Origin: Methanospirillum hungatei
Lineage (GTDB): Archaea > Halobacteriota > Methanomicrobia > Methanomicrobiales > Methanospirillaceae
DNA: 64,000 nt
Direction of reading: 5' to 3'
NCBI RefSeq assembly: GCF_019263745.1
Contig: NZ_CP077107.1
Coordinates: 1,798,001 to 1,862,000 of the forward strand
A model generated the notes under the pieces. The model was not told the origin of the DNA and did no database searches. It was given only the letters and a program-made list of their open reading frames with translations. This document shows, piece after piece, positions 34,133-44,177 of the stretch (position 1 is its first letter; every line of letters starts with the position of its first letter). The position numbers were made by a program, and so were the translations under genes.

Positions 34133-35413
34133 TTATGGTATAGTAATGGCCTTTACTGCTGTTCCTTTTCCATGCTCGCCAGATATTGTCAGCCCAACAT
34201 GATAGGTGCCAGGACCGGCATAGATGTGAACAGGATTTCGTTCCCAGGAGGTATACCCGTCACCAAAATCCCAGAAGAATACGGTGGGTGTACCTTCTGA
34301 TGTTTCCCGAAATGTAATCGTTGCCGGATCATCCGGATGAGGAGTCCAGGAATATGATGCACGATATACCCTGATAACTTCAGAATCAGATGCCTGCCCG
34401 CACATATTTGACACAATATACCTGACCTGATACATACCTGGGTTTTCATACCGGTGAGAAAACGCTCCGGTCTGGTTTATCGTTGTGCCATCTCCCAGTA
34501 TCCAAACACCAGACACGGGATTAGTCATTACATTACCACTCGAACGCTGGGAAAACCTGACTTCAAGGGGTGCATATCCGGATTTTGGATCAATATTGAT
34601 TGATGTATCCAGTGCAGGAACAGTACCTGCAGATGCCTGTTTATTCATAAGTGACCACATCTGATTTGTTGCATCAGATGGATAGGTGATAGTTACCGCA
34701 TCACGATGAACTCCGGGTAAGAATATATCCGGCTGACCTCGGTCTGCTTCTCCAGGATAAAACCGGTTCTGCTCACCTATGGGAACTGAAACCGGGTGAT
34801 CATGTCTGGATATATAACCAAATCTTGCAGTATATGTGCCATCTGCATTCTGGCAGACAAATCCGGCCTCGGGTATCAACATCTCGGGATTAGGTGTTCC
34901 TGCCGGTTTTGGAGTGGTTGTTCCTTTCATTGAGGAGATTGTGTCCGGAGATTTGGATGCTGTCAGGCTGTACCTGTTTAAAATTGAGGTAACATCCTCC
35001 TGATCGATGATGTACTGCGCCCCCACCATTCGTTCTGTGTTTCCATCCCAGGAAAGAAACCGTATCATCGCAGGTTTTGAGCCGGTCGGAGACACCCCGG
35101 TGAACGTGTAGGTTTTCGGATCTGGCTTCAATTCAGATGGATAGTCCTGAAATGAATAGGTCCGGTTTGTATCATCAAACCAGAGTATTCTGACTATCCA
35201 TGAGGATGGTTTGTCTGATTCAATACTATTATTTGCATCATAGGGAGAATTCCAGGATTTATCGGTAGAGAAATCCGGACCCTGCCCGGAGGTAAAAAAA
35301 AGAGATATTCCAGCAGCGATAATGAGTGATATAAGAATGATGATAAGGACGAAATGATACTGGTTATCCATTGGATCCATAACAGTTCTTACATCTTTTA
35401 CACCATATGCCAT
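34133..35413 (-). CDS. Membrane-anchored surface protein with two PKD domains
   Basis: This 426-residue protein has one N-terminal helix (about 20-40; HFVLIIILISLIIAAGISLFF) that works as an uncleaved anchor or signal. An unrecognised extracellular part (45-255) follows, then two PKD domains (about 265-345 and 350-426). They end in the typical F-x-H-x-Y strand (GAFSHRYENPGMYQVRYIV) and WDFGDGYTSWERNPVHIY. PKD domains mediate protein or carbohydrate contacts on archaeal surfaces. Start options are the ATG at 35413 or ATGs at 35380 and 35371. The gene is divergent from the M13 peptidase, 43 bases apart. Confidence 0.85.
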   Translation of the reverse strand: MAYGVKDVRTVMDPMDNQYHFVLIIILISLIIAAGISLFFTSGQGPDFSTDKSWNSPYDANNSIESDKPSSWIVRILWFDDTNRTYSFQDYPSELKPDPKTYTFTGVSPTGSKPAMIRFLSWDGNTERMVGAQYIIDQEDVTSILNRYSLTASKSPDTISSMKGTTTPKPAGTPNPEMLIPEAGFVCQNADGTYTARFGYISRHDHPVSVPIGEQNRFYPGEADRGQPDIFLPGVHRDAVTITYPSDATNQMWSLMNKQASAGTVPALDTSINIDPKSGYAPLEVRFSQRSSGNVMTNPVSGVWILGDGTTINQTGAFSHRYENPGMYQVRYIVSNMCGQASDSEVIRVYRASYSWTPHPDDPATITFRETSEGTPTVFFWDFGDGYTSWERNPVHIYAGPGTYHVGLTISGEHGKGTAVKAITIP

Positions 35414-35456
35414 GATGGCTTCCCATCAAATCCATGTTTTGCAGGAATATCACACC

Positions 35457-37580
35457 ATGAATATAAGAAATAACCGATTTCAAAAATTTTCGCGCAAGAT
35501 ACATGCTGAAAAAAAACAAGAATATCTCATACCCGTGAGAATCACAGGTTTTTTTGTCCTGGTTTTCACAGGTATTTTCCTATCAGGATTCGGACATGCT
35601 GACATCGTCTCGACTGCATCACCACCAGGAATGAATCTCTCAATCGATCCTGGTGAAGACTTCTTTTCATATGCAAATTATTACTGGGTACAGGACCATC
35701 CGGTACCACCTGAGAACACCTTCTACACTGCATTTGAAGAAGTGAAAGACACCGTTGATACCCGTGTCAGAGAACTTGTTGAGGATGCTTCCCTAGACTA
35801 TGGAGCTGAAGATGGAACACCCCGGCAACTTCTCGGATCCTTTTACCGGGCGGCCATGAATGACCGGCTAAATGCTGAAGTTGGTCTGACACCTGTACAG
35901 GATGATCTTGAAGAGATTGAACGTGCACAAAATAGAGCTGAGGTGAGGAGAGTTGCATCAAATTTAACTGCACGTGGGCTTGATCCTTTTTTTATTCTCT
36001 ATATAGATGAAAATCCTCAAAAGAGAAAGGAGCTTATCGCAGTTATTGAGACTGGAGATTTCACCATCCGGTTTCCACCATATTATGAACTTGAATTTGA
36101 TGAGGCTAAACGAGTTCAAAATGAGATGAAGAAGTACATCATCTCAACATGTACGAATCAGGGCATGGATTCTAACGCTGCTATTAACGCAGCAGATAAA
36201 ATATTCCGGATTGAGCGTCGTCTTGCACGTGCTGAGATGTTACTTAACACGTCACATTCAAGTTCGCCCCAGAACCTGAGTGAAGGAACATATAATGTAT
36301 CTGATCTGAACACTCTTTTTCCAGGCACCAACTGGGAAGCATTATTTGAGAGATCGGGAAGGCCTGATCTCAAAGAAGTGTACGTGATGAACCCGCACTA
36401 TCTTCAGGAAGTCGGCAGAATTCTATCTACAGAACCAGTTGATGATTTGAAACTATACCTTACCTGGCGGGTATTACAATTCGCAAGCCCATTTGCTTCT
36501 CCTGATATGCAGGAGGCTTATTATCAGTTCTATGACGAAAAACTCTCTAAAAAAGAGATCACTCCACAAAAAGACAGAGTTTTTGACATTCTGAACCTGT
36601 ACCTGGGAAATCCTATTGCCCATCTCTATGTTGATAAATATTTTAGTTCATCTGATAAAGCAAAAGCAGAAGATATTATCAAAAACATCAGGGAGGTAAT
36701 GAGAGAGCGGGTTCTCAATCTCTCCTGGATGAGTCAGGAAACGAAGGATACGGCTCTGCTTAAAATGTCGTACCTCAAAGAACAGGCAGGGTATCCTGAA
36801 GATTGGGGGGAGTACCAGAACCTGACGATCAGAGATCAATCATATCTTGAAAATATGCTCGCGTTAACTGAATATTTCACAAACGGTAGTCTTCAGTTAT
36901 CGGGAGAACCTTCTGATCCTGATGTCTGGTACGTGTCACCACATGGTGTTGAAGCTCATTATGATCTGGTTCATAACAGGATCGTTGTCCCGGCCGGTTT
37001 CTTAAATCCACCATTTTTTGATCCGTTGGTTGACGATGCATGGAATTATGGATCATTTGGTTGGGTCTACGGACACGAACTTACTCATATGATTGACATC
37101 GGAGGGCAGCAGTATAGTCCTGACGGGAAGAAAGAAAACTGGTGGACCGATGATGATGCAAATCAGTACTTCCATGCAGCATGGCCACTCATTGTCCAGG
37201 TGAATTCAACAAAGGTGCTTGACAACCTAACCTTGAACGGGACTCAGATGCTTATTGAAAGTTCAGCGGATCTCGGTGGTCTTACCCTTGCATATGATGC
37301 TTATATTCGTTCCAGACCGAATCCTGATACCCTTGATACTCCCGGATATGACGGGCTTACAGATCGGCAACGTTTTTTTGTCGCTTTTGCACAGGCACAG
37401 AGAGGAAATATTACTGATGATAACCTTCGTAACATTACCCAGACTGAAGACCACCCCTGGAATAAATTCAGAGTCAATATGATTCCATATCATCTCGAAG
37501 CTTTCTATACTGCATTTCCGGATATTAATCAAGGAGACTCGCTTTATTTGAATGAAAGTGAACGGGCACATCTCTGGTGA
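35457..37580 (+). CDS. M13-family zinc metallopeptidase (neprilysin-like)
   Basis: This is a 707-residue enzyme. Residues about 24-46 form a signal anchor (ITGFFVLVFTGIFLSGFG). The M13 N-terminal helical domain extends to about 480, and the catalytic domain holds the zinc motif HELTH (His540, Glu541, His544) and the third ligand Glu601 with Asp605 in ESSADLGG. The conserved C-terminal Cys-x-x-x-Trp of neprilysins is replaced by SERAHLW, so that disulfide is absent. Members cut peptides at the amino side of hydrophobic residues. The ATG at 35457 is preferred over 35412, which would overlap the divergent PKD gene start. It is probably exported or displayed on the cell surface. Confidence 0.93.
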   Translation: MNIRNNRFQKFSRKIHAEKKQEYLIPVRITGFFVLVFTGIFLSGFGHADIVSTASPPGMNLSIDPGEDFFSYANYYWVQDHPVPPENTFYTAFEEVKDTVDTRVRELVEDASLDYGAEDGTPRQLLGSFYRAAMNDRLNAEVGLTPVQDDLEEIERAQNRAEVRRVASNLTARGLDPFFILYIDENPQKRKELIAVIETGDFTIRFPPYYELEFDEAKRVQNEMKKYIISTCTNQGMDSNAAINAADKIFRIERRLARAEMLLNTSHSSSPQNLSEGTYNVSDLNTLFPGTNWEALFERSGRPDLKEVYVMNPHYLQEVGRILSTEPVDDLKLYLTWRVLQFASPFASPDMQEAYYQFYDEKLSKKEITPQKDRVFDILNLYLGNPIAHLYVDKYFSSSDKAKAEDIIKNIREVMRERVLNLSWMSQETKDTALLKMSYLKEQAGYPEDWGEYQNLTIRDQSYLENMLALTEYFTNGSLQLSGEPSDPDVWYVSPHGVEAHYDLVHNRIVVPAGFLNPPFFDPLVDDAWNYGSFGWVYGHELTHMIDIGGQQYSPDGKKENWWTDDDANQYFHAAWPLIVQVNSTKVLDNLTLNGTQMLIESSADLGGLTLAYDAYIRSRPNPDTLDTPGYDGLTDRQRFFVAFAQAQRGNITDDNLRNITQTEDHPWNKFRVNMIPYHLEAFYTAFPDINQGDSLYLNESERAHLW

Positions 37581-39815: not shown

Positions 39816-41396
39816 ATGAGACATTACTTTTTAATTCTATGTATCCTGGCATGTATTCCGGTGATGGTATGTGGAGCATCACCAGGAGATATCCTGAAAA
39901 ATCAGGTGTTGGGTCTTCCGAATATACCTGAATGGGGTTATGGGCTTGATACTTCACCTGATGGGAACACAACTGTCTGTGGAGTTGCATATCCGGATGA
40001 TTCAGTTGATCTCGGTGAACTTGGAAACGGAGATGCCTGGGTAATCAGGTTTGATTCAAACGGAACTATACTCTGGGAAAAATTATTCGGAGGGAATGAA
40101 ACTGATTATGCCCTTTCAGTCAGAAATCTCCCAGACGGAGGAGCGGCAGTCATCGGAACCACTGGATCATACAACGGGGATGTCAGCGGGTATCATGGAA
40201 ACGGAGATCTGTGGTTCATCAATCTTGGGCCAGATGGTAATATCCGATGGGATCAGGCACTTGGTGGTGACCTGATCGATGAGGGATCTGATATTGCGGT
40301 GCTACCAGATGGCGGATATATATTATGTGGCTACTCCATGTCCTCAAATGGAAATCTTCGAAGACATCTTGGGGGTGGCGATCTGTGGCTTGTCAGACTG
40401 GATAAAGATGGGAACCTTCTTTGGCAACAGACATATGGTGGAAGCAGACGGGATAGTGGAACCAGCGTAACAATAACTGGTGACAATGCCATTGTTGCAT
40501 GTGGTAACACCAACTCCACTGATGGTATGGTATCAGGTAACCGGACCAGCAGTGATGTCTGGATAATTAAGACAGATATGAATGGAACCTTGTTATGGGA
40601 GCAGTCTTTTGGTGGATCAGCACTTGACTGGGGGCATTCAGTTATTGAACTGGCCTCTGGTGACCTGATGGTTGCGGCAGTCACAGCATCTGATGATGGA
40701 GATATTGTAAAAAACAACGGAGCAGGGGACATCTGGCTTATGCGTCTCGCCCCTGATGGAACAATTATCTGGAACCAGACATACGGGGGCAGTTTTAGTG
40801 ATAATGTCTGGAAACTGGAGCCGTCTCCTGGAGGTGGAGCATATCTGGTGGGTGACAGTTATTCTGTTGACGGACACTTTGCCGGAAATCATGGAGAATC
40901 AGATCTCCTGATAGGTGAGGTTGATGGAGATGGAAAATTGATCTGGCACCGACAGATTGGAGGATCTTCTGTTGACCGGGGATCATGGGTCAAAAGAACC
41001 AATGCAGATACCCTTGTAGTAACCGGGATGACTGCTTCTTCAGATGGCGATGTCTCTGGTGATCACGCTCTGGGTGATCTCTGGATTCTTGAAGTGGAAG
41101 GCAGTAGATATGAGAACACCAATAAATCAGAGCAGGTTCAGACCTCTACGCCCATTACTCGTTCACCGATTGGTCCACTCAACGGAGACGGACCAGTACC
41201 AACCGACCCTGACGGAGATGGCAAGTATGAAGATCTCAATGGGAATAAAGAGATGGATTTACAGGATCCTACAGTTTTCTTCAAATATTTTGCCTGGCTT
41301 CAGACTCAGGAATATGCCGATGCGTTTGATTTTAATGAGAATGGGGCACTGGATTTGAGTGATGTTCAGGCCCTGTTTGCGGAGATTCAATCATGA
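39816..41396 (+). CDS. Secreted beta-propeller protein with C-terminal dockerin
   Basis: This is a 526-residue exported protein. Residues 1-21 are a signal peptide (RHYFLILCILACIPVMVCG). About 30-435 hold six to seven propeller blades, each with D-[LVI]-W...G-x-[IL]-x-W...GG. After a Thr/Pro linker comes a dockerin: two calcium loops, DLNGNKEMDLQD (473-484) and DFNENGALDLSD (505-516), with Asp/Asn at positions 1, 3, 5 and 12. Dockerins bind cohesins. The next gene, overlapping by four bases (ATGA), encodes a cohesin-like protein. The ATG at 39816 is chosen for its strong GGGGAG site rather than the upstream in-frame codon at 39798. Confidence 0.88.
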   Translation: MRHYFLILCILACIPVMVCGASPGDILKNQVLGLPNIPEWGYGLDTSPDGNTTVCGVAYPDDSVDLGELGNGDAWVIRFDSNGTILWEKLFGGNETDYALSVRNLPDGGAAVIGTTGSYNGDVSGYHGNGDLWFINLGPDGNIRWDQALGGDLIDEGSDIAVLPDGGYILCGYSMSSNGNLRRHLGGGDLWLVRLDKDGNLLWQQTYGGSRRDSGTSVTITGDNAIVACGNTNSTDGMVSGNRTSSDVWIIKTDMNGTLLWEQSFGGSALDWGHSVIELASGDLMVAAVTASDDGDIVKNNGAGDIWLMRLAPDGTIIWNQTYGGSFSDNVWKLEPSPGGGAYLVGDSYSVDGHFAGNHGESDLLIGEVDGDGKLIWHRQIGGSSVDRGSWVKRTNADTLVVTGMTASSDGDVSGDHALGDLWILEVEGSRYENTNKSEQVQTSTPITRSPIGPLNGDGPVPTDPDGDGKYEDLNGNKEMDLQDPTVFFKYFAWLQTQEYADAFDFNENGALDLSDVQALFAEIQS

Positions 41397-42385
41397 AATA
41401 TCGTATAATCTGTATTGTACTGCTTTTTGCAGCAGTTTTTATGATCACGCTTACGAGTGGAGCAGTCATATCAATGGCTCCGGTTACTTTAAATCCTGGA
41501 AGTTCGGGTACCACAAGTCTCATTCTTGACACTGCCCCGACAGGGATTTCCGGATATCAGATGAAAGTTTCTTCAGATAATCCGACAGTTGTATCAATAA
41601 CTAATGTTACATTTCCACAATGGGCATCCCTTTCCGAAGCAGTTCCGGGAGAAGCAGGTGTGTATGCTCTTCGCGCTATCGATCTGAATAGTGGTGTGGA
41701 AGCCGGAGCTTCATCCATTACCCTGGCTACATTATCTCTTCAGGCATCAGGGGAAGGAAATGCCAAAATAACTATTCAAAATCTGATTATTGATGATGAT
41801 GCCGGGAGTCAGGTTCAGGCAGAGAGTACACAGGGATCCATTACCGTAGGAAGTGGAGATACAACACCCACACCAGCACCTACATCTGGACCTGCACCCC
41901 GGGATATTCAAATCAATCTGAAACCCGGGTGGAATCTCATTAACATTCCTGTGCTGCCATCTCCGGGATTTGAGACTGCAGAGATATTTAAAAATGTTCA
42001 AAGCGGCGGGCATTCTATGCTGACCTATGATAAGACAGGTTGGGTGACAATTGGAAAGGAGCATATCCTGAGCCCAATGACAGGATACTGGGTTTATACA
42101 ACAACCCCGGTTATGATCCCCCTGAAGATTCAGGAAGGTGTCATTGAATCAAAATTCCTCGCTCCTGGCTGGAACCTTGCAGGCATTACCGGAACAACAG
42201 AAAGAGCGCCTGAATCGGCACTTTCAGGTCTATCAACCTGGACATATCTCGTTACATTTGACAGTTCATCACAACAATATCGGGACGCAACAATGAAAGA
42301 TGCACAGAGCCAGTCAGTGCTCAATCCGTTCGAAGGATTCTGGATATATGTGGATTCACCAGGAACGATCAGCCCGGTCGCCTGA
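41393..42385 (+). CDS. Secreted protein with cohesin-like domain and two GWNL repeats
   Basis: This is a 330-residue exported protein. Residues 1-23 are a signal peptide. Residues 24-152 form a cohesin-like beta sandwich (VTLNPGSSGTTSLILDTAP, ISGYQMKVSSDNPTVVSI, ASSITLATLSLQASGEGNAKIT). A Thr/Pro linker follows (155-168). The C-terminal half has two related modules, each starting PGWNL (178, 258) and ending GYWVY or GFWIY (231, 315). No anchor is seen. It is translationally coupled to the dockerin protein, and a Ca-dependent cohesin-dockerin complex is the simplest reading. The cohesin call rests on pattern, not a search. Confidence 0.75.
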   Translation: MKYRIICIVLLFAAVFMITLTSGAVISMAPVTLNPGSSGTTSLILDTAPTGISGYQMKVSSDNPTVVSITNVTFPQWASLSEAVPGEAGVYALRAIDLNSGVEAGASSITLATLSLQASGEGNAKITIQNLIIDDDAGSQVQAESTQGSITVGSGDTTPTPAPTSGPAPRDIQINLKPGWNLINIPVLPSPGFETAEIFKNVQSGGHSMLTYDKTGWVTIGKEHILSPMTGYWVYTTTPVMIPLKIQEGVIESKFLAPGWNLAGITGTTERAPESALSGLSTWTYLVTFDSSSQQYRDATMKDAQSQSVLNPFEGFWIYVDSPGTISPVA

Positions 42386-42433: not shown

Positions 42434-42970
42434 ATGGAGATCCGTACCATGTACTACAAAATTGGAGTAATACTCCTGTTCTTTACAGTTCTTGTGGCCG
42501 GTGTTTCTGCAATCCCCCCGCTGCCATATGAGTTCTATGGAAACGCTACCATGAATGATACCCCTGTCGATGCAGGCACAGTCATTCTTGCCAAAATCAA
42601 TGGCACTGAAGTAGGGAATGTGACTACAACAAAAGCAGGATCCTATGGGGGACCAGACACATTTGACCGCCGGCTGGTTGTCAATGGAGCAGAGGATCAG
42701 ATTGGGCAGTATATTACCTTCTGGATCGGTGATAAGCAGGCAGCTGAAAAAGTAAAACTGTACGCAGGAGAATCACAGCGGCTTGATCTTACCTTTATTC
42801 CAGGAAAAGAAGGGAGTATTGATAAATCAGTTACGCCATCACAATCAGGGACAATAGCGGATGTTCCTACAGATGTTGATACCCCAGTTGCAACTGAGAC
42901 AAAAGCACCCCTGTTCATTGCACCATTTGCTGCAGGACTTGCTCTGCTGCTTCTGAGACGCAGGGAATAA
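42434..42970 (+). CDS. Small secreted protein with C-terminal anchor
   Basis: This is a 178-residue protein. Residues 5-27 are a signal peptide (KIGVILLFFTVLVAGVSA). A beta domain (30-125) resembles carboxypeptidase-regulatory or DUF11-like folds (YGNATMNDTPVDAGTVILAKINGTEVG). A Ser/Thr/Asp-rich stalk follows, then a C-terminal helix (APLFIAPFAAGLALLLL) ending RRRE. The helix plus Arg tail is the pattern of archaeal sorted or membrane-anchored surface proteins. It follows the cohesin gene but has its own promoter. Confidence 0.8.
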   Translation: MEIRTMYYKIGVILLFFTVLVAGVSAIPPLPYEFYGNATMNDTPVDAGTVILAKINGTEVGNVTTTKAGSYGGPDTFDRRLVVNGAEDQIGQYITFWIGDKQAAEKVKLYAGESQRLDLTFIPGKEGSIDKSVTPSQSGTIADVPTDVDTPVATETKAPLFIAPFAAGLALLLLRRRE

Positions 42971-43025: not shown

Positions 43026-44177
43026 ATGCCCGAGGTCACAGTATATTCCACCCAGAACTGTCCCTATTGCAGACTGGCAAAAGCCTTTCTTGATAGAAAT
43101 AATGTCCCATACCGGTCAATAGATGTCGGAATAGACCGGAAAGCAGCCAAAGAAATGGTTGAGCTTTCCGGGCAATATGGTGTGCCGGTTATCGTTTCCG
43201 GTGATGAGGTTATTGTAGGATTTGACACAGACAGACTGAGGGAACTGTTCACATCTGAAAAGAAAACAGATCTTTTTGACGTTATCATTGCCGGAGCAGG
43301 TCCTGCAGGCCTTACTGCTGCCCTTTATTGTGTCAGGAAAAATTTAAAAACACTCATCATATCTCCAGATATCGGGGGTCAGGCACTCGAGAGTTGGAAC
43401 ATTGAAAATTACATGGGATACCGGATGATTACCGGTGATGATCTGATGGCAAAATTTGAGGAACAGATCAGAGAACTTGACATCAGAGTTGAGCTGGATC
43501 AGATCCAGTCTCTCCTTCCCACGTCCGGGGGATTTGCTATCAAAACTGTTTCAGACCAGGAATTCAAAGGAAAAACAGTCATTCTTGCTCAGGGTAAAAA
43601 ACCGAGAAAACTAGGGGTCCCAAAAGAAGACCAGTTCATCGGAAGAGGACTTTCAGTCTGTGCCACCTGTGACGGACCGCTCTTTCGGGACAAGGTTGTC
43701 GGTGTTGTCGGAGGAGGCAACTCTGCTCTCACAACCGCCCTTGAGATGAGTGGTATTGCTAAAGAAGTGCATCTTATTGTCAGAAGTTCAATCAGGGCTG
43801 ATGCTGTATATACTTCGCAATACGCGCAGAGACAGAATATTATAACCTATACCGGATATGAAATTACCGAACTCTCCGGAGAAGACCGGTTGTCAGAAGT
43901 TGTAATCAAGAACCGTGAAACCGGCGAAGAGAAAAAATTAAAATTAGACGGATTGTTCACAGAAATCGGATGGATACCAAATACTTCATTTGTTGATGGA
44001 CTACTCAAACTCAATGAACAAAAAGAGATTGAGATTGATATAAATTGTCGAACCAGTGCACCAGGAATATTCGCTGCAGGTGATGTTACTGCAATATCCG
44101 GAAAACAGATCATTATTGCATGTGGCGAAGGTGCAAAAGCAGCTCTGTCTGCATTTGATTACCTAATGACACGATAA
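43026..44177 (+). CDS. Glutaredoxin-thioredoxin reductase fusion flavoprotein
   Basis: This is a 383-residue protein. Residues 1-75 form a glutaredoxin/NrdH-like domain with CPYC (Cys12, Cys15). Residues 84-383 form a thioredoxin reductase-type flavoprotein with the FAD loop GAGPAG (90-95), the redox-active CATC (212-215), GGGNSA (229-234) and GIFAAGDVTA at the end. The HRRxxxR-type residues that hold the NADPH 2'-phosphate are absent (IVRSSIRA at 251-258), so the electron donor may be NADH, F420H2 or ferredoxin-linked. The fusion makes a self-contained disulfide reductase. It stands alone, and a T6 run (44196-44201) follows. Confidence 0.9.
   Translation: MPEVTVYSTQNCPYCRLAKAFLDRNNVPYRSIDVGIDRKAAKEMVELSGQYGVPVIVSGDEVIVGFDTDRLRELFTSEKKTDLFDVIIAGAGPAGLTAALYCVRKNLKTLIISPDIGGQALESWNIENYMGYRMITGDDLMAKFEEQIRELDIRVELDQIQSLLPTSGGFAIKTVSDQEFKGKTVILAQGKKPRKLGVPKEDQFIGRGLSVCATCDGPLFRDKVVGVVGGGNSALTTALEMSGIAKEVHLIVRSSIRADAVYTSQYAQRQNIITYTGYEITELSGEDRLSEVVIKNRETGEEKKLKLDGLFTEIGWIPNTSFVDGLLKLNEQKEIEIDINCRTSAPGIFAAGDVTAISGKQIIIACGEGAKAALSAFDYLMTR

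Follow-up and report, generated by a model that had tools for sequence, protein, structure and literature searches.

Two genes on the forward strand of Methanospirillum hungatei, which overlap by four nucleotides, encode secreted proteins that carry, respectively, a dockerin and a cohesin. The features of this gene pair and its immediate neighbour are listed here by their positions in the window, by which we mean the whole stretch of 64,000 nucleotides that was analysed.

39816..41396, + strand: gene 1, 526 aa, secreted beta-propeller of seven blades that ends in a dockerin (ORF and translation, CylK similarity, AlphaFold2 model)
39816..39875, + strand: approximate extent of the gene 1 signal peptide (N-terminus MRHYFLILCILACIPVMVCGA is hydrophobic; the model has a helix at 2-12)
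39891..41099, + strand: seven-bladed propeller, residues 26-428, 28 strands (AlphaFold2 model; nearest fold CylK 7fh6)
41193..41390, + strand: dockerin, residues 460-525 (own-genome dockerin profile, 110.3 bits; PF00404, 17.4 bits)
41232..41267, + strand: calcium loop 1, DLNGNKEMDLQD, residues 473-484 (translation, orthologue comparison)
41328..41363, + strand: calcium loop 2, DFNENGALDLSD, residues 505-516 (translation, orthologue comparison)
41381..41384, + strand: GGAG motif resembling a ribosome-binding site, within gene 1 and 8 nt 5' of the gene 2 ATG
41393..41396, + strand: ATGA stop/start overlap, 4 nt
41393..42385, + strand: gene 2, secreted cohesin and GWNL protein, 330 aa (ORF and translation)
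41393..41461, + strand: signal peptide of gene 2, approximate (hydrophobic N-terminus; helix 2-15 in the model)
41459..41851, + strand: cohesin, residues 23-153 (AlphaFold2, Foldseek, family profile)
41912..42382, + strand: pair of GWNL repeats at the C-terminus, inferred to attach the protein to the envelope (14 own-genome copies; 71/119 Methanomicrobiales genomes)
42434..42970, + strand: third gene, encoding a secreted protein of 178 aa that ends in a hydrophobic anchor (its place next to the pair is conserved)

An earlier note on this DNA had given the span of the gene pair and its ATGA overlap, and on each point it was right. The start codon of gene 1 is backed by GGGGGAG upstream. We compared six orthologous pairs, namely that of the window, those of G112, M. 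stamsii and G116, and those on two Methanospirillum MAG contigs (L135 and L136); the exact ATGA overlap and the GGAG-type motif before it are kept in all six. The third gene also lies directly 3' of the pair at L102, L103 and L104. Further downstream (window 43026-44177), a glutaredoxin-like domain is fused to a thioredoxin-reductase-like enzyme, and this gene is conserved downstream of the pair in other Methanospirillum species. Upstream, a secreted protein of 722 aa with an HELTH motif (window 35412-37580) appears to resemble the M13 (neprilysin-type) metallopeptidases, which are unusual for an archaeon.

The AlphaFold2 model of protein 1 (mean pLDDT 78.1) has 28 strands arranged as seven four-strand blades. 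CylK (7fh6) is by far the nearest solved fold to this propeller (Foldseek, E 1.8e-24), and the similarity is also detected by sequence (phmmer, E 1.8e-22); as a seven-bladed propeller with sequence similarity to CylK, protein 1 belongs with the SBBP/CylK-like proteins. At its C-terminus both 12-residue F-hand loops, DLNGNKEMDLQD and DFNENGALDLSD, are intact, as had been claimed earlier, with Asp or Asn at positions 1, 3, 5, 9 and 12; helices follow the two loops (483-496 and 514-525), and the dockerin is modelled with a pLDDT of 91-95. The C-terminus of protein 1 thus has the two loops plus helices of a type I dockerin. The suggested check with PF00404 gave 17.4 bits, which is under the curated cut-off of 22.9, while a paralogous dockerin on an S8 protease of the same genome (L022), 46% identical to that of protein 1, reaches it with 23.0 bits; the assignment of protein 1 to the dockerins therefore rests on homology and structure. 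One residue counts against the reading of the pair as passenger and anchor, as position 6 of loop 1 is Lys in the window dockerin and Gly in its orthologues.

Protein 2 consists of a signal peptide, a cohesin-like domain, a Pro/Thr linker and two GWNL repeats. The earlier note had read a cohesin-like beta sandwich after the signal peptide, a reading to be given up if residues 24-152 took a non-cohesin fold. The fold that the model gives is that of a cohesin: residues 23-153 are modelled mostly with a block pLDDT of 88-97, and in a Foldseek search of the PDB the top 36 matches are all cohesin entries (E about 1e-9 to 1e-6), including 3kcp, 6kgf and 4ums as well as 2xdh from Archaeoglobus fulgidus (target TM 0.80); 1ohz also has a TM of 0.80. 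By sequence the domain is far less conspicuous. The PF00963 profile, the other suggested check, found no match over its curated cut-off in protein 2, Pfam and NCBIfam scans of the protein returned nothing useful, and PDB sequence searches with cohesin profiles gave weak matches only, the best being in each case a scaffoldin cohesin. A family profile built from the four cohesins of the M. hungatei genome has relatives in 49 of 119 Methanomicrobiales genomes. One of its members, G105:C17:3285-3671, forms a bridge to Pfam, scoring 106 bits with the family profile and 24.7 bits, which is over the cut-off, with PF00963. Judged by its modelled fold, the domain of protein 2 is a cohesin of a subfamily mostly missed by Pfam.

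The two GWNL...GYWVY modules that had been noticed in protein 2 follow the cohesin as repeats at about 174-247 and 254-326. No informative sequence match to them was found in Pfam, NCBIfam or the PDB, and their modelling confidence is moderate (pLDDT blocks mostly 55-87). The GWNL pair recurs in 13 further proteins of the genome (also L177-L185), in 13/13 of them at the extreme C-terminus, and all have a secretion-type N-terminus. Four S8 subtilases of the genome end in GWNL and two end in a dockerin; likewise, one of two NosD-type beta-helix proteins has GWNL and the other a dockerin. Argued purely from position, GWNL is probably an attachment module, since it stands at the C-terminus of proteases that have paralogues with a dockerin in its place. 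Read most simply, GWNL would attach a protein directly and a dockerin would do so via a cohesin-GWNL adaptor; we infer that what GWNL binds is the envelope or the sheath. Seven other downstream cohesin proteins (L111, L112, L114, L120, L142, L152 and L167) have a C-terminal hydrophobic anchor, but for some cohesin partners elsewhere no anchor is apparent, which counts against an anchoring role. GWNL is a candidate for the attachment of proteins to the envelope in an order of archaea whose anchoring is poorly understood.

The M. hungatei genome encodes six dockerins and four strong cohesins, and three of the dockerins have no neighbouring cohesin. Each of the four cohesins is encoded 3' of a dockerin, on its strand and within 1.6 kb of it; for three the distance is less than 100 nt, and the fourth is encoded by the gene that comes next in the same cluster. 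Given this arrangement and the conservation of the pair across Methanospirillum, the pairing is not due to chance. Across 119 Methanomicrobiales genomes, which are not independent of one another, the cohesin family occurs in 42/42 with a clear dockerin of this type and in 7/77 of the others (Fisher p 3e-25); within a single genus (g4), four genomes have both modules, 12 have neither and none is discordant. Among the 140 cohesins listed, 78 have a listed dockerin less than 3 kb away, in every case on their own strand, where uniform placement would give 0.76. At least 24 of these 78 are cohesin/dockerin combinations within one protein, and 54 are counted, by ORF length, as separate ORFs, with the dockerin upstream in 41. 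A wider contig scan was baited with the dockerin, the broad cohesin alignment being too divergent for that scan, and returned loci from ANME-1, ANME-2, Archaeoglobaceae, haloarchaea, Thermoproteaceae and Aenigmatarchaeota, many of them with the dockerin gene followed by the cohesin gene. The ratio of the two modules varies: genomes G060 and G098 have 43 and 45 dockerins, respectively, and only a handful of cohesins, and operon-like clusters at L115 and L118 contain three dockerin genes and then one cohesin gene. The cohesin protein of L115 also has 13 PKD domains.

Two further pair families are found in Methanospirillum, both in the same four species. In one, an S8 or papain-like protease with a dockerin is followed by a short cohesin-only protein; in the other, a large SBBP propeller with a dockerin is followed by two cohesin proteins. 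At positions 10-11 of loop 1 each family largely keeps its own residues, and the three families differ there (LQ; Y/N then D/E/G; T/S then A/N/K). In bacterial dockerins these are specificity positions, and the differences are in line with separate binding specificities.

The closest known design is that of A. fulgidus, where, among the combinations cross-compared, the ORF2375 dockerin (432-506) and the ORF2376 cohesin (29-162) are reported to bind each other most strongly and most specifically (PMC9705933). In our data (genome G120) the upstream ORF (506 aa) encodes a propeller-type repeat, then a cohesin, and ends in a dockerin; the protein of the next ORF has its cohesin at the N-terminus and PGF-CTERM as its anchor. 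As in the window, propeller repeats with a C-terminal dockerin are encoded upstream, a protein with an N-terminal cohesin and a C-terminal anchor is encoded directly adjacent, and 2xdh, the structure of an A. fulgidus cohesin, closely matches the modelled cohesin of protein 2 in fold. In contrast to the window pair, ORF2375 has an additional cohesin, the anchor is PGF-CTERM instead of GWNL, and the cohesins are of the PF00963 type. We rejected membership of the window cohesin in the A. fulgidus subfamily, as the A. fulgidus cohesin scores 6 bits with our family profile; the match is therefore one of design and fold, not of close homology.

The ANME cohesin and dockerin proteins (Chadwick et al., 2022, PMC9012536) are likewise non-cellulolytic archaeal surface proteins, and the ANME-1 and ANME-2 loci L138 and L145 share the dockerin-then-cohesin gene order, but the ANME repertoires are far larger and include scaffoldin-like proteins and different passengers. 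With the bacterial cellulosome, represented by Clostridium thermocellum CipA and its dockerin enzymes, the window pair shares the two-loop calcium dockerin and the cohesin beta sandwich. The resemblance ends there: the six dockerin proteins of the genome are two propellers, two S8 proteases, one beta-helix protein and one other, with no glycoside hydrolase found among them, and no multi-cohesin scaffoldin was found in the M. hungatei genome. For these reasons a cellulosome was rejected. Non-cellulosomal archaeal dockerins and cohesins are already known (Bayer 1999, Peer 2009 and Voronov-Goldman 2011, as represented in papers citing them), and a domain count for M. hungatei JF-1 lists nine dockerin matches and one cohesin match (PMC5244752). 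Our literature search found no description of the window pair, of its cohesin subfamily or of the GWNL module, and absence from that search is not proof. The pair is of a known type, with a mostly Pfam-missed cohesin subfamily and an undescribed C-terminal GWNL module.

The earlier note had proposed a calcium-dependent way to mount a propeller on the cell surface or sheath. Gene order, genome-wide co-occurrence, the conserved overlap and the A. fulgidus precedent support this idea, which is less surprising than it first seemed given the non-cellulosomal proteins of A. fulgidus and ANME and the nine dockerins tabulated for M. hungatei. We consider it likely that the two genes form a non-cellulosomal surface-display pair in which gene 1 encodes the passenger and gene 2 the anchor. 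The secreted propeller would carry a C-terminal dockerin that folds on two calcium ions; the N-terminal cohesin of the secreted gene 2 product would bind this dockerin; and the C-terminal GWNL pair would hold the complex at the envelope or the sheath of the cell. The propeller may have a ligand of its own. The ATGA overlap and the ribosome-binding site inside gene 1 may lead to near-equal synthesis of both proteins.

As the genome encodes three more strong cohesins and five more dockerins, the modules could be real and the partners crossed, such that a mixed surface network forms instead of dedicated pairs. The window cohesin would then mainly take orphan dockerins (the S8 protease of L022 and the proteins of L023 and L024) and the window dockerin would sit mainly on another cohesin. 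We regard this as unlikely. The excess of six dockerins over four strong cohesins, the three dockerins without a cohesin neighbour, the 43-45 dockerins per genome in some relatives and the operons with three dockerins and one cohesin would all suit such a network, but the overlap is conserved, each pair is co-inherited across species, and loop 1 positions 10-11 are largely kept within pair families and differ between them.

Two other explanations seem less probable still. The low sequence similarity to classical dockerins and cohesins might mean that the dockerin is a mere calcium-stabilised C-terminal cap, that the cohesin domain is an ordinary adhesion-type beta sandwich and that the two do not bind each other; we consider this very unlikely, as the structure matches cohesins specifically and the complete co-occurrence in genomes, together with adjacency, is hard to explain without an interaction. 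Methanospirillum forms chains of cells inside a sheath, which would favour an adhesion device with the propeller on one cell and the cohesin on the next cell or on a syntrophic partner. A role in cell contact has indeed been proposed for ANME cohesins and dockerins (PMC5244752, PMC9012536). Synthesis from the same operon nevertheless suits assembly on the same cell, and gene 1 encodes no second anchor besides the dockerin, so that we hold adhesion between cells to be highly improbable compared with a same-cell mount.

We lean slightly towards extending this reading to a display system found throughout the archaeal domain, in which the gene of a secreted passenger with a C-terminal dockerin is followed by that of a cohesin whose anchor can be exchanged (transmembrane, PGF-CTERM or GWNL) and in which the Pfam-missed subfamily would supply the partners of the many orphan dockerins in methanogens. 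Methanogen dockerins have been listed without clear partners, as in the nine against one cohesin of M. hungatei (PMC5244752), and the subfamily provides candidates. Conserved gene order can serve as a rule by which to predict partners in archaea at large, and the function of non-cellulosomal cohesins and dockerins is now directly testable with small, soluble domains that are encoded side by side in a cultured genus.

Some loci from the scans depart from the simple pair. In genome G031, a methanogen relative, an ORF at L111 (8036-10285) has three consecutive cohesins; its neighbours encode two proteins with both cohesin and dockerin and one protein with a single cohesin and a hydrophobic C-terminus, and together they form a scaffoldin-like set. 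At L025 (4107-5360 and 6759-8009) and L026 (4667-5956), in duplicated ABC transporter loci, transport proteins that resemble periplasmic binding proteins start with a dockerin-like pair of EF-hands. Finally, at L144 (3764-8276), from an Archaeoglobaceae MAG, a long identical stretch is common to two cohesins, one in the upstream protein, which also has a dockerin, and one in the downstream protein; this suggests a recent duplication or gene conversion.
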